Part shown: in pieces, positions 58,351-64,000 of the stretch | How the letters are laid out: the number at the start of each line of letters is the position of its first letter | How positions within the stretch are numbered: position 1 is the stretch's first letter | Translations under genes and position numbers: made by a program | Source: Brevibacterium sp. HMSC07C04 | GTDB lineage: Bacteria > Actinomycetota > Actinomycetes > Actinomycetales > Brevibacteriaceae | Assembly (NCBI RefSeq): GCF_001815905.1 | Contig: NZ_KV823236.1 | Location: forward strand, 8,527 to 72,526 | Length of the DNA: 64,000 nucleotides | Direction of reading: 5' to 3' | The notes under the pieces: model-generated | Told to the model about the DNA's origin: nothing | Seen by the model: the letters and a program-made list of their open reading frames with translations, nothing else | The model's database searches: none

Positions 58351-59505
58351 TCACTTGGTCAAATGCGCTGCCAATCCGGCCATGACAGCCGTCTGTCGGG
58401 GCAGTCCGCTTACGGTGATGTGCTCGTGCCGGGCGTGCGGCCCGGCACCGATACCGCCAAGGCCGTCGATCACCGGAAGCCCCAAGGCTGCAATGAAATT
58501 GCCATCGCTAGCTCCGCCTACGGGCTTTGTCGAAATCGTGCTGCCCAGCTCATTGCCGATCGCTTCGACGACAGCGACCAGCTCGTTGACCCGCTCACTC
58601 GGGTTCATCGGCGGGCGATTGCGATCAATCTCGGTTGTGACGGTGCAGCGGCTGTCGTATGGCGAAAGATCTTCCAGCTCCGCTACAACACGGTCTTCTT
58701 CATCAGCGTCCTGTATGCGAACGTCAACTTCACACCGTGCTGTACCGGCAACAACATTCCTGCCGGAACCGCCGTTGATGATCCCAACATTGATGGTCGT
58801 TCCCTTTTCCGGGTCCGCAAGGTCCGCAACTCGGCCAACAAGCCGGGCGAGTTCATGGATCGCGCTTGCGCCCTTTTCTGGATCGAGGCCAGCATGCGAT
58901 TCGACTCCCTGAACCGTGATGTCGGCCATCACCGTTCCCTTTCGCTGTACCTTGATATCCCCTCCGGCGCTTGGCTCAGCAATCAAGGTCAGAAGGCTTT
59001 CGGATGCCGCATCTTCAATATGCTGACGGCTGGCAGTAGAGCCGATCTCTTCATCGCCGGTCAGCAGCAGGCGGATTGCAGGATGCGGTATCGCCAATTC
59101 CCGCAGCGCGGTGACCATCCATATGGTCTGCACAATTCCGGCTTTCATATCCAGAACGCCCGGGCCGGTCAGAACGTCGCCCTTACGGGTCAACGGCCAA
59201 TCAGCAAGTGTGCCTTCTGGCCAAACAGTGTCGTAGTGGCAGACTGACAGCAACGTGCCCTCAACGCCGGGCGACCCTTCCCATGTGAGATCAAGGACGT
59301 CACCCCGATCCCCGCCATTGTGGAGCTGGCGTTTGGCTGGCGTGCCAAGGCGCTGCTCGACAAAAGGCTCAAATTCCCGGAGAAATCTGTCCAAAAGTCG
59401 ACGATCGCTGCTCGGTGTTTCGAGACTGACAAGCCGGTCGAGGTCATCGAGGACAGCTTCGATGTTCTTTTCGACAAAATCATGCACTGCACGTACGTGC
59501 GACAT
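58351..59505 (-). CDS. M20 family metallopeptidase (CPG2-like)
   Basis: A 384-residue di-zinc peptidase. ATG 59505 was chosen (AAAGGAG upstream). The metal ligands are visible: H in SVCHYDTVWPEG, D in GVLDMKAG, the EE pair in LTGDEEIGS, E in IAEPS, and a C-terminal H in GPHARHEH. The dimerisation domain sits between. It is 30 bases downstream of an AbgT transporter gene, pointing to cleavage of p-aminobenzoyl-glutamate or a similar N-acyl-glutamate. Carboxypeptidase G2 or ArgE/DapE-type activity are alternatives. Confidence 0.86.
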   Translation of the reverse strand: MSHVRAVHDFVEKNIEAVLDDLDRLVSLETPSSDRRLLDRFLREFEPFVEQRLGTPAKRQLHNGGDRGDVLDLTWEGSPGVEGTLLSVCHYDTVWPEGTLADWPLTRKGDVLTGPGVLDMKAGIVQTIWMVTALRELAIPHPAIRLLLTGDEEIGSTASRQHIEDAASESLLTLIAEPSAGGDIKVQRKGTVMADITVQGVESHAGLDPEKGASAIHELARLVGRVADLADPEKGTTINVGIINGGSGRNVVAGTARCEVDVRIQDADEEDRVVAELEDLSPYDSRCTVTTEIDRNRPPMNPSERVNELVAVVEAIGNELGSTISTKPVGGASDGNFIAALGLPVIDGLGGIGAGPHARHEHITVSGLPRQTAVMAGLAAHLTK

Positions 59506-59535
59506 AGAGCTATCTCCTTTCACAGGCAGCGAAGA

Positions 59536-61083
59536 TCAGCGAACCGGCACACCGGGGCCCAGCGGCAGGCCGAGGGCGTACCAGAGGGCGAAGAAGGCAA
59601 ACCAGCCCACGAGCATCGCCACAGACAGCGGCAAGGTCAGAGAAAGCAGAGTGCCGATCCGGGCGCGCGAATAGTACTGCTGTACATAGCCGAGCGCCAA
59701 GGCGAAGTACGGGCTCATGGGGCTGATGATATTGGTCGGCGAATCGCCGATGCGGAACAGCATCTGAGTGACTTCGGGCGACACGTCCAACAGCATAAAC
59801 ATGGGGACGATAACCGGGGCCATCAGCGCGTACTGCGCGGATCCGCTTGTGATCAGCAGATTCAGCAGCGCCACCAGAAGCACCAGCCCGGCGAACATCA
59901 CCAGGGTCGGCATCTGTGCTTGCTGCAGAAGTTCAGACGCCTTGATCGCAATGATCGGCCCAATATTCGACCACTTGAAATAGGCCACGAACTGCGCGGC
60001 GGCAAAGAACAGAACCATGACGGGGGCCAGGGAAAGAAGGCCCTTGCCCATCATCTCCGGAATGTCCTGCGCTTTGGTGATGGAACGGGTCACAAGACCG
60101 TAGACCACACCAACAACTGCAAACATCAGCGCGATGGGCACGACAATGGCGCTCAGCAGCGGACTGTCGAGAATTCCCTCTTCGCCATGGAAGATGGAAT
60201 TCGGCCACAGGAGGGCGGCAAGGTAGACCGCGAGGAAGACGAAGCCGACGATGAAGGCCAGGATGACTCCGCGCTTCTCAGCCGGGCTAAGACGGAAATC
60301 ATCCGCTGAGGCAGCATCTTCGTGAGGCTCGTCATCGATCATGTCCTTCGTGGTGCGAACCAGCAGCAGCTCAGTGACCAGTGTGACGATCAGAGCAAGG
60401 ACGATCGCAGACGCTATTGAGAAGAAATAGTTGGCAACGGGCGAAACGGTGACGGATTCGTCGATCAGCTGAGCGGCACTGGTGGAAAGCCCAGCCAGAA
60501 TTGCGTCAGTGGCGGTGACAAGCAGCGAAGCGTTGAAGCCGGCACTGCACGACCCGAATGCTACAACCGCACCCAGCACAGGTGAACGTCCCGCTGTCTT
60601 AAAGGTGACGGCGCCAAGCGGAATGAGCACGACGTAGACGGCATCAGAGGCGACCGAACCAGTGACCCCGGCAAGGGCAAGAACGAAAGTCAGCCACTTC
60701 GGCGAGACCCTGGCGACCACGCCGCGGATGGAAGCGGAGATGAGGCCGGACTGTTCGGCGACTGCCACTCCTAGCATCACGATGATAATCAAGCCAAGGG
60801 GAGGGAAGCCGGTGAAGTTCGGCACGGCTTCCGTGATCATCTTGTTGATGCCGTCTGGGCTGAGTAGGTTGACGACGGCGACTTCCTTGTTGTCGGCCGG
60901 CGAAACTGCACTGACTCCCAGCTTCGAAAGAAGGGCGCTCAGCAGAAGGGTGATGACCGCAAGCCCGGCGAAGAGCCAAAAGGGGTGGGGCAGTTTGTTG
61001 CCGGCCCGCTCAATTCCAGTCAATAGGTTGACAAGCCACGTGCCGCGTTGCCTTTCGGTGCCTGTCTGCGTTGATGACGACAT
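59536..61083 (-). CDS. AbgT family transporter (p-aminobenzoyl-glutamate type)
   Basis: A 515-residue protein with about 13 membrane segments and the family features (GIERAGNKLPHPFWLFAGLAV; GSGSAQYALMAPVIVPMFMLL; GDSPTNIISPMSPYFAL). The same strand and the 30-base gap to the M20 gene suggest one operon. AbgT imports the folate breakdown product p-aminobenzoyl-glutamate; some members instead export sulfonamides. Confidence 0.9.
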   Translation of the reverse strand: MSSSTQTGTERQRGTWLVNLLTGIERAGNKLPHPFWLFAGLAVITLLLSALLSKLGVSAVSPADNKEVAVVNLLSPDGINKMITEAVPNFTGFPPLGLIIIVMLGVAVAEQSGLISASIRGVVARVSPKWLTFVLALAGVTGSVASDAVYVVLIPLGAVTFKTAGRSPVLGAVVAFGSCSAGFNASLLVTATDAILAGLSTSAAQLIDESVTVSPVANYFFSIASAIVLALIVTLVTELLLVRTTKDMIDDEPHEDAASADDFRLSPAEKRGVILAFIVGFVFLAVYLAALLWPNSIFHGEEGILDSPLLSAIVVPIALMFAVVGVVYGLVTRSITKAQDIPEMMGKGLLSLAPVMVLFFAAAQFVAYFKWSNIGPIIAIKASELLQQAQMPTLVMFAGLVLLVALLNLLITSGSAQYALMAPVIVPMFMLLDVSPEVTQMLFRIGDSPTNIISPMSPYFALALGYVQQYYSRARIGTLLSLTLPLSVAMLVGWFAFFALWYALGLPLGPGVPVR

Positions 61084-61252
61084 CGTATTCCTTCGCTTTG
61101 GCGGACGGATTGCGGAAAGCCTACCGGAGCCGTCGGCCTGCTGCTAATGAAATGAAATATTCTTTCCGCTCAGTTGAAGCCTCCCTATGCCGCCGTTCAG
61201 ACCACCCAAACCTGAGCGCCAGCGCACTGTCCTTGCTAAAGTTGCGCCCGTA

Positions 61253-61359
61253 CGACAGGGGAGCGCCTCGGATCAGACCTAGAGATCCGAACAAGGGCGC
61301 TGAGAGTGCGATGCCGCAGACCCTCGAACCTGCCCGGTTAGCACCGGCGAAGGAAGTCG
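61253..61359 (+). ncRNA. TPP riboswitch (THI element)
   Basis: The conserved elements appear in order: GGGGAGC near 61259, GCGCTGAGAGTGCG near 61297, GACCCTCGAACCTG near 61320, and a CCGGTTAGCACCGG hairpin followed by GAAGGAAG. CGAC/GTCG closes the P1 stem. It lies 39 bases upstream of the first YkoE-like gene, so thiamin pyrophosphate controls this operon. Confidence 0.93.
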
Positions 61360-61374
61360 AGCACACTCTTGACC

Positions 61375-61393
61375 CCTCCTTGCCTTGAGGAGG
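61375..61393 (+). promoter_or_regulatory. Ribosome-site-sequestering hairpin below the TPP riboswitch
   Basis: CCTCC at 61375-61379 pairs with the GGAGG ribosome site at 61389-61393, just before ATG 61398. Control is therefore likely at translation. No terminator hairpin with a T-tract is seen. Confidence 0.7.
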
Positions 61394-61397
61394 ACTC

Positions 61398-62120
61398 ATG
61401 ACACAGGACAACCGTGTCCAAACCGGACACCAAGCCAACCCACGAAACCACACCAACCCAACCACCGCCTCGTCAGCCCAGCCACAGAACCCGCACTCAC
61501 AGCGCCCGCAGACAAAAAGCGGCCTGCGCTGGCGGACCGTTGACATCATCGTCACTGTCGTCATCGCTGTGGCTGTCGGCGTCGTCTTCTGGGCAGTCGC
61601 CGCCATCTGGGGCGTCTTCGAACTCTGGACCGTCGCATTCCCACCGCTGGTCGGCCTGTTCGGCGGCATCTGGGTGCTTGCAGGGCCACTCGCCGGAATC
61701 ATCGTCCGCAAACCCGGTGCGGCCATCATCGCCGAAACCCTCGCCGCCGCCGTCGAAGCAGTACTTGGGTCCCACTTCGGCGCAACCGCCATCATCTCCG
61801 GGCTCCTGCAGGGCGCCGGCGCTGAAATCGTGTTCCTCGCCTTCTTCTACCGCAAATGGAACCTGCCGGTCATGCTCCTATCCGGCCTCGGCGCAGGTGT
61901 CGCCCTGGTGGTCGGCGAAATCGTCATGTACTACGCCAAATGGGCTATGACATTCAAGGTCGTCTACGCCGTGTGCGGAATCGCATCCAGCATTATCATT
62001 TCCGGATTGGGTGCATGGCTCCTGTGGAAGGCAATCGTGCCCACCGGCGCACTGTCAGCCTTCGCCTCCGGGCGGACGACAACCACACCCCGCCAGCACA
62101 CAACCCCCAACCGCACATGA
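61398..62120 (+). CDS. ECF transporter substrate-binding subunit, YkoE family (first copy)
   Basis: A 240-residue protein. A low-complexity Asn/Thr/Gln-rich N-terminus of about 45 residues precedes five or six membrane helices (from WRTVDIIVTVVIAVAVGVVFW). The family feature RKPGAAIIAETLAAAVEAVLG is present. YkoE is the S component that binds the thiamin precursor hydroxymethylpyrimidine. The TPP riboswitch upstream fits. A second, similar gene follows after 14 bases. Confidence 0.88.
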   Translation: MTQDNRVQTGHQANPRNHTNPTTASSAQPQNPHSQRPQTKSGLRWRTVDIIVTVVIAVAVGVVFWAVAAIWGVFELWTVAFPPLVGLFGGIWVLAGPLAGIIVRKPGAAIIAETLAAAVEAVLGSHFGATAIISGLLQGAGAEIVFLAFFYRKWNLPVMLLSGLGAGVALVVGEIVMYYAKWAMTFKVVYAVCGIASSIIISGLGAWLLWKAIVPTGALSAFASGRTTTTPRQHTTPNRT

Positions 62121-62134
62121 GCTGAAAGACCCCG

Positions 62135-62827
62135 ATGACCCACACCGCACACACCACGCCCACACGCAGCCTCACATGGCGCACCGTTGACATCATCGTC
62201 GCGGCAGTACTCGCCGTCGCGCTCGGTGCTGTGTACTTCGCGTGGACGTCCCTGCGGCCCATCATCGACGTCCCGTTCAACCTCGTGTTCCCACCCACCA
62301 CGGGCCTGGTCGGCGGCCTCTACCTGCTGGCCGGGCCCGTGGGGGCACTCATCATCCGCAAACCCGGCGCCGCAATCGTGTGCGAACTCATCGCTGCAGC
62401 AACCGAAGCCCTCCTGGGTTCGGTCTTCGGTCCGGTCATCCTGTTCACCGGCCTGTGCCAGGGCATCATGACCGAACTCGTCTTCGCCCTGACCCGCTAC
62501 CGCCGCTACACCCTCGGCATTTCCGTACTCGCAGGCCTCGCACCGGCCATTTCGGTGTCCATCACCGACAACATCTTCTGGAACGCCGGCTGGGCCTTCG
62601 AATGGCAGCTGGTCTTCGCCGCATGCGCCCTGGTCTCAGGGCCCGTATTCGCCGGCCTGGGCGGCTGGTTCGTCTACCGCGCCATCCGCCGGACCGGAGT
62701 GCTGACCGGATTCGCATCCGGCACCGATCCGCGCCCGAGGCGCCGCCCACCTCACGCCGCATCCTCAGCTGAAGGTGCGGGTCACCGGGGGAGCCCCTCA
62801 GAAAGCGAAAGTCCCGCAGATAAGTGA
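62135..62827 (+). CDS. ECF transporter substrate-binding subunit, YkoE family (second copy)
   Basis: A 230-residue paralogue of the first copy: LTWRTVDIIVAAVLAVALGAVYF and RKPGAAIVCELIAAATEALLG. The C-terminus is extended by a basic, Ser/Pro-rich tail. It ends four bases into the start of the ATPase gene (GTGA overlap). Two S components in tandem could bind different pyrimidine or thiamin-related ligands, or act together. Confidence 0.88.
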   Translation: MTHTAHTTPTRSLTWRTVDIIVAAVLAVALGAVYFAWTSLRPIIDVPFNLVFPPTTGLVGGLYLLAGPVGALIIRKPGAAIVCELIAAATEALLGSVFGPVILFTGLCQGIMTELVFALTRYRRYTLGISVLAGLAPAISVSITDNIFWNAGWAFEWQLVFAACALVSGPVFAGLGGWFVYRAIRRTGVLTGFASGTDPRPRRRPPHAASSAEGAGHRGSPSESESPADK

Positions 62828-64000
62828 CCACCACCTCGTCATCTCGACCCGCGGCAGTGTCCGCCCGCGGGTTCACCTGGTACCACTCCGGCCGTTCAGA
62901 ACCGGCCGTTTCCGACCTCGACCTGGAAATCCCAGCCGGGCAGAAAGTTCTGCTGGTCGGTGGTTCGGGTGCTGGAAAATCCACGTTCCTCCACGCCGTT
63001 GCCGGTGTGCTGCCCGATGAATCGGGCGAACAGTACGGCGAACTCCTTGTTGACGGCCTCCCACCGGACCCTGCCCGCGGAGTCTCAGGGCTTGTCCTGC
63101 AGGATCCCGATTCGCAGGTGATCCTCGCCGAAGTCGGCGACGATGTGGCCTTCGGCATGGCCAATGTCGGCATTCCCGCAGACAAAATCGCCCGCCGAAT
63201 CCCCGAGGCCCTCGACATTGTGGGCCTCGACGTCCCACTGACCCACCCGACGGCAGCTCTGTCCGGCGGGCAGAAACAGCGCCTGGCCATCGCCGGGGTC
63301 GTCGCCATGCAGCCGGGCCTGCTGGTACTCGACGAACCCACCGCGAACCTCGACCCGGCAGCCGTCGAATCCGTGCGCGACTCCATCATCGCCGCACAAG
63401 AAGCCACGGGTGCGACCATGCTGATCGTCGAACACCGCCTGCCGGTGTGGACCGAACACGTCGACCGGATTGTGGTTCTGGGTCCAGGCGGTGTTCTCGC
63501 CGATGGCAGCCCCAAACACATCCTGGCCGACAGCGCACTGCGCCCCACACTGGAAGCAGCCGGACTGTGGCTGCCCGATGCCGCCCTGCCCATGCCGTAC
63601 GCGCCGAGCATTGGCGAAACACTCATGAGCGCCGACGGCCTTGGTGTTCAGCGCGAAGGCGGCGAACCGGTCGCCGAACTGACCGCCGACATCCACGCCG
63701 GAACAGCGCTCGCCCTGACCGGCCGCAACGGTGCAGGAAAATCAACCACTGCGCTCACGCTTGCCGGTCTGCTCAAACCCGCATACGGCCAGCTTGCCGC
63801 AGCCCAGCAGCTGACCACCCTAGGCGGCACCGTCCGCCCACCCAAACACAGTGACCCTTTCCGGTGGAGCTCGCGCGAACTCGTGCCCCGCATCGGCATG
63901 GTGTTCCAAGAACCCGAACACCAATTCCTGCGGGCCACTGTCCTGGACGAATTGCGCTTCGGCCCACAGCGCGCCGGCTGGGGCCCCCGAGCAGCAGACG
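62824..64000 (+). CDS. ECF transporter ATP-binding protein with two ATPase domains (YkoD-like; 3' end outside window)
   Basis: The frame is open to the right edge. GTG 62824 overlaps the preceding stop. The first ABC domain has Walker A GGSGAGKS (about 46-53), Q-loop LQDPDSQ, signature LSGGQKQR and Walker B LLVLDEPTANLDP. The second starts near residue 275 with Walker A GRNGAGKST (about 300-308). A Q-loop FQEPEHQFL follows. YkoD fuses both ATPases of this ECF system. The T component (YkoC-like) presumably follows beyond 64000. Confidence 0.92.
   Translation, partial: MTTTSSSRPAAVSARGFTWYHSGRSEPAVSDLDLEIPAGQKVLLVGGSGAGKSTFLHAVAGVLPDESGEQYGELLVDGLPPDPARGVSGLVLQDPDSQVILAEVGDDVAFGMANVGIPADKIARRIPEALDIVGLDVPLTHPTAALSGGQKQRLAIAGVVAMQPGLLVLDEPTANLDPAAVESVRDSIIAAQEATGATMLIVEHRLPVWTEHVDRIVVLGPGGVLADGSPKHILADSALRPTLEAAGLWLPDAALPMPYAPSIGETLMSADGLGVQREGGEPVAELTADIHAGTALALTGRNGAGKSTTALTLAGLLKPAYGQLAAAQQLTTLGGTVRPPKHSDPFRWSSRELVPRIGMVFQEPEHQFLRATVLDELRFGPQRAGWGPRAAD

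Follow-up and report, generated by a model that had tools for sequence, protein, structure and literature searches.

In the group II ECF transporters, ThiT, RibU, BioY and other S components compete for a shared EcfAA'T module, and more than one receptor also feeds one translocator in ABC importers of the GlnPQ type, which carry tandem substrate-binding domains. How ECF transporters have moved between a pump with one receptor and a shared pump with many is, in our assessment, an open question. In YkoE of Bacillus subtilis (5EDL) the pyrimidine of thiamin is contacted by W49, E77 and Q95 and the thiazole by D131 and Y46 (PMC5037267, in the portion of that paper drawn on here). In the library searched, no paper brings YkoE and Brevibacterium together, and none that speaks of an "ECF transporter" and an "operon" also uses the phrase "two S components"; the YkoE papers were covered in small part, and an earlier notice of tandem YkoE genes is possible.

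The locus considered here, from Brevibacterium sp. HMSC07C04, carries two YkoE genes in one operon. It lies at the end of what we call the window, the whole stretch of 64,000 nucleotides that was analyzed (contig C8 of genome G000, positions 8527-72526), which belongs to a 2.47 Mb draft genome of 63 contigs that is rated 99.97% complete. One riboswitch, two intact YkoE paralogues (YkoE1 upstream, YkoE2 downstream), one double ATPase and one T component follow one another in a single direction with short or overlapping junctions (Table 1). The YkoE genes are 14 bases apart, the stop of YkoE2 and the start of the double ATPase overlap by four bases, and the likely start of the T component, judged by eye, is a GTG at L004:3804 inside the double ATPase gene; these last two junctions may mean coupled translation of the genes that follow YkoE2. 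A DUF445 gene comes next after the T component. The tandem array is not an assembly artefact, since the same array is present in the independent assembly of Brevibacterium ravenspurgense CCUG56047 (genome G031, locus L038, on the same contig as L058). This is the closest named relative that we saw, its second YkoE being 99% and its first 90% identical to those of the window. Divergent from the riboswitch operon, on the minus strand at 58351-61083, an AbgT-family transporter stands beside an M20 peptidase, a pair that looks like a system for p-aminobenzoyl-glutamate uptake and cleavage.

Table 1. Features of the tandem YkoE operon (window positions, or L004 positions beyond the end of the window).
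Feature	Coordinates	Strand	Evidence
TPP riboswitch aptamer (THI element) with inserted arm in the P3 region	61247..61372	+	RF00059, 51.3 bits, E 2.5e-9, model positions 1-105 of 105
Expression platform: anti-Shine-Dalgarno (CCCCTCCTT from 61373) and GAGGAGG (61387-61393)	61373..61393	+	Minimum-energy fold of the window leader
YkoE1, S component, upstream copy	61398..62120	+	PF09819, 130.8 bits; 5EDL by sequence (E 2.2e-23) and by fold
YkoE2, S component, downstream copy	62135..62827	+	PF09819, 121.3 bits; 5EDL by sequence (E 4.4e-27) and by fold
EcfA-A' double ATPase (YkoD)	62824..64000, continuing past the window to L004:3817	+	PF00005 in two stretches; ORF L004:2351-3817, 488 aa
T component, separate gene past the window end	to L004:4721		PF02361, 80.2 bits, cut-off 25

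A preliminary description of this DNA had placed a TPP riboswitch ahead of the tandem genes, and this is borne out by a full-length RF00059 match in which the CUGAGA and ACCCU..GAACCUG cores and the helices of the model are aligned (six pairs are flagged as non-standard), the same cores being present in the leaders of orthologues. The aptamer misses the gathering score of 54.3 bits, which is a curated search threshold and not a biological feature, and does not appear in a scan of the whole window at that threshold. The likely reason is the inserted arm in the P3 region, which among 36 aligned Brevibacterium leaders is found in those of the window and B. ravenspurgense and lacking in the other 34; the arm-less leader at L040 scores 63.6 bits. 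The hairpin that had been proposed between CCTCC and GGAGG also folds in the window leader, where CCTCCTT (61375-61381) pairs with GAGGAGG. The Shine-Dalgarno sequence, four bases ahead of the ATG, is thus masked. CCTCC precedes GGAGG in every one of the 36 leaders, and in 35 minimum-energy folds three or more of the five bases of GGAGG pair with the upstream CCTCC region. The hairpin is not universal, as the GGAGG of genome G025 does not pair with that region; counting any partner, at least three of the five bases are paired in all 36 leaders folded. Covariation within the genus is hardly usable because both strands vary little, and the clearest compensatory change seen is in the leaders of family f11, where, by eye, a similar hairpin joins CCTTCC to GGAAGG.

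No terminator-like site was detected in 61060-62200 (0 found, against a mean of 0.9 in shuffled sequences), nor was a sigma-70-type promoter by the same scan, and the TAAAGT at 61237-61242 could, by eye, be a -10 element. With a hairpin that masks the Shine-Dalgarno sequence and no terminator-like site in the scanned region, a translational switch is the likely mode, in line with what had been supposed. When TPP is bound, the hairpin would hide the Shine-Dalgarno sequence of YkoE1, and when TPP is scarce this sequence would be free and the operon translated. In folds with Shine-Dalgarno pairing forbidden, an AGGGG:CCCCU helix forms in 26 of the 36 leaders and a GAGAG:CUCUU helix in 30, the window's own leader forming neither; as a prediction only, these antisequestor helices would dismantle the aptamer.

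Both S components are YkoE proteins by family and by fold. The PF09819 cut-off of 25.2 bits is well exceeded by each, and with AlphaFold models of the two copies (mean pLDDT 90.5 and 88.9) the sole Foldseek match with E at most 0.001 was 5EDL in either case. The YkoE1 model aligns to it with a TM score of 0.87 by target length and 0.72 by query (rmsd 1.7), and the YkoE2 model with 0.85 and 0.73 (rmsd 1.8). The possibility that the second copy is the T component or a member of another family is thereby rejected, the T component being a separate downstream gene, and the view that two true paralogues precede one double ATPase gene holds. Conservation of docking helix H1 was also considered as proof of a shared module and proved uninformative: H1 exceeds H5 in similarity by about 0.27 on average in 12 paralogue pairs (our own arithmetic), and 45 non-paralogue pairs follow the same trend with a mean difference of 0.21.

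In B. subtilis numbering, the pocket of YkoE1 has W49, E77, Q95, E131 and G46 and that of YkoE2 has Y49, E77, Q95, D131 and G46; apart from W49Y in YkoE2, the pocket changes between copies are conservative (E/D, S/T). Of 79 rows compared, 75 have Q at position 95, whereas position 77 holds E in 56 rows, S in 22 and T in one. As E77 is not universal, its retention says less about thiamin binding than that of Q95, and E77 is the least informative of the three pyrimidine contacts. W occupies position 49 in 77 rows, the two with Y being YkoE2 and its orthologue in B. ravenspurgense. Elsewhere in the same genome, a third PF09819 S component (L005:4197-4865, on contig C54) lies beside ABC-type frames; it probably serves another ligand, given that E77 and Q95 are missing and that a search of this locus gave no TPP riboswitch match at the gathering threshold.

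Tandem YkoE genes are uncommon, not unique, and recurrent. Adjacent same-strand PF09819 pairs occur in five of 57 Brevibacterium genomes (G000, G031, G034, G001, and G023), and 51 of the 56 with a PF09819 match have no such pair, in keeping, within this genus, with the earlier statement that most operons contain one YkoE. In G023 (L039:6184-8562, minus strand) the second YkoE is fused in frame to the double ATPase, giving a protein of 793 aa with PF09819 and two ABC domains; this S-A-A' fusion adjoins a free YkoE. Outside the Brevibacterium family, tandem YkoE genes were found in seven of 51 sampled genomes of family f4, four of genus g32 and three of genus g71, with genome sizes of 0.8 to 1.4 Mb. 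At all seven f4 loci (L101-L107) a single open frame, 856 to 980 codons long from stop to stop, encodes both the ATPase pair and the T component, which leaves one module in the operon for two S components. Five of these loci were run against Rfam, yielding sub-gathering TPP matches at L101 and L107 (45 and 48.4 bits) and none at L102, L104, and L106. Among 45 sampled f18 genomes no pair of strong PF09819 matches was found; one genome of this family has two weak matches on one strand about 1.5 kb apart (L108, G266:C1:1265327-1267197).

The phylogeny of the copies, proposed in the preliminary description, was examined in two trees. In the first, built from 77 domains, one clade (98/87) holds the downstream copies from G000, G031, G034, and G001 and another (98/90) their upstream copies together with one gene of genome G030; the two G023 copies are sisters (99/93). 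A second tree recovers the downstream clade of these four genomes at 94/91 and gathers the f4 pairs in a clade of their own (100/98), within which the downstream copies are monophyletic and the upstream copies are not. At least two duplications therefore took place, and on the best tree three. A single origin of the five Brevibacterium downstream copies was not rejected (AU p 0.116), the best tree needing two; the positions shared by downstream copies may accordingly be inherited rather than convergent, and gene conversion in G023 is possible.

Compared with 37 other rows, the downstream clade of four genomes has four private positions. Three of these (88 I, 91 T, and 131 D) recur in the G023 downstream copy, which is placed elsewhere in the tree, and all five Brevibacterium pairs split alike at 88, 91, and 131. 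At position 131, D occurs in 5/5 downstream copies and E in 5/5 upstream copies and 31 of 32 non-tandem Brevibacterium rows (G in the other); G037, likewise with E, and two distant rows are outside this count. Simulations, which address chance sharing on the best tree only, never produced three shared positions (0/500 under LG+G4 and 0/500 under C20, the maximum being two), suggesting that the sharing of 88, 91, and 131 in two tree branches exceeds chance. Residues 88, 91, and 95 are at helical spacing on H4 and 131 is on H5, and on this basis 88, 91, and 131 are probably pocket positions. The f4 copies differ at position 46 (N upstream, D downstream) and at position 91 (P upstream, S or once G downstream), and in genus g32 also at position 95 (E upstream, Q downstream). 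A YkoE1 relative with G at 131 was seen in G030 (L047); it has no TPP riboswitch match, and the same genome has a riboswitch-linked YkoE (L046).

Three TPP riboswitch matches are present in the genome, before a thiM-thiE-thiD-tenA-like cluster, before a thiO-like-thiS-thiG-thiF cluster and before the YkoE operon. The oxidoreductase gene that we take, from its context, to be thiO-like has a Pfam match to DAO. No ThiC match or candidate was found in this nearly complete genome. As thiE, thiD, thiM, and thiSGF are present, the gene content suggests that the organism should produce its own thiazole moiety and couple it to the pyrimidine, and should need to import HMP or thiamin. This corresponds to the ThiC-less pathway variant that Table 1 of PMC6593275, the part of that study relied on here, gives as dependent on B1 or HMP; the table places YkoEDC among the HMP transporters and YkoEDC2 among the B1 transporters. 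Within Brevibacterium, ThiC is present in 17 of 57 genomes and missing from 5/5 tandem and 35/52 other genomes, and ThiC loss as a cause of the duplication is not significant (about 0.16, hypergeometric, by our own arithmetic and with relatedness ignored). ThiG matches are strong in G000, G031, G034, and G023 and not in G001. Two further observations concern other genomes: at G029:C1:464210-465474 a thiC match is in two pieces with an internal stop, as if thiC were being lost in that species, and G046, rated 5% contaminated, has five strong ThiG matches (contigs C13, C33, and C34) that may be repeats or an assembly matter.

Taken together, we think it rather probable that the operon encodes a TPP-repressed group I ECF transporter of the YkoEDC type with a duplicated S-component gene, whose two specialized receptors for thiamin-type pyrimidines would alternate on one module. 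YkoE1 and YkoE2 would be specialized for different pyrimidines of this type, for example thiamin on the one hand and HMP or another pyrimidine breakdown product on the other, and would take turns in docking on the one ECF module, in the manner of S components in group II transporters. The need for such a transporter would stem from the absence of ThiC, with which the pyrimidine half or whole thiamin must be imported. The operon encodes a dedicated ATPase and T component together with its S components, as expected of group I, but has two S genes for one module where group I has a single S component, and we therefore file it as a variant. The preliminary description had left open whether the copies bind different thiamin-related ligands or both occupy one transporter. 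The former is favored by the sequence comparison, as E77 and Q95 are kept, 49 and 131 differ, and 88, 91, and 131 split in five pairs, and the latter stands only in the sense of sharing one ECF module, for which the single ATPase-T frame of f4 speaks.

The strongest competitor, which we regard as unlikely but worth weighing, is redundancy or dosage, with both copies taking the same ligand and two receptors raising the capture rate or widening the affinity range. The presence of E77 and Q95 in both copies and the conservative nature of the E/D and S/T changes are compatible with it; however, identity between the two copies in the window is only 41%, W49 is lacking in just two of the 79 rows (YkoE2 and the B. 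ravenspurgense orthologue), and the same three positions part upstream from downstream copies in two tree branches. We hold it to be improbable that a single complex contains the two S components simultaneously and that they jointly form the functional receptor: the genes are tightly paired, and the G023 fusion would tether one S component to the ATPase and leave the other free, yet PMC5037267, in the portion of that paper drawn on here, describes ECF complexes as having one S component. Degeneration of YkoE2, or its switch to a ligand unrelated to thiamin, is very improbable, since its longer branch (0.81 vs. 0.42) and W49Y are set against an uninterrupted reading frame, 99% identity to its counterpart in B. 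ravenspurgense, the retention of E77, Q95, and D131, and a place behind a TPP riboswitch.

Beyond the operon with two specialized, alternating receptors, we advance more tentatively, and with somewhat less than even confidence, the proposition that dedicated group I transporters repeatedly became small shared-module systems by tandem receptor duplication and change at the same few pocket positions, so that two receptors for different thiamin-type ligands compete for one pump behind one riboswitch. Three points are new here: tandem YkoE genes recur, upstream and downstream copies diverge at identical positions in two branches, and the f4 operon has only one module to share. An operon with paralogous receptors and a single module allows a clean test of how receptors come to share a pump, with two related sequences, few pocket differences, and a single pump. 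The YkoE pair could also reveal the residues that separate thiamin from HMP; genome-based predictions of vitamin needs, we infer, make this separation without known specificity residues.

Compared with known systems, the operon is most readily set beside YkoEDC of B. subtilis, with which it shares THI-box control, a PF09819 S component, a double ATPase, a separate T component, and the E77 and Q95 contacts, as far as these are set out in the part of PMC5037267 used here. It differs in having two YkoE paralogues where B. subtilis has one, and in its pockets, with D131 replaced by E in YkoE1, Tyr46 by Gly in both copies and W49 by Y in YkoE2 relative to 5EDL. The proposed action, several S components competing for one ECF module, would resemble that of the group II transporters, whereas the Brevibacterium S components are paralogous and have their own module in the same operon, which by gene order makes this a group I system. 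With the GlnPQ-type importers it has in common more than one receptor per translocator, although the Brevibacterium receptors are membrane-embedded S components of another fold, encoded by separate genes.
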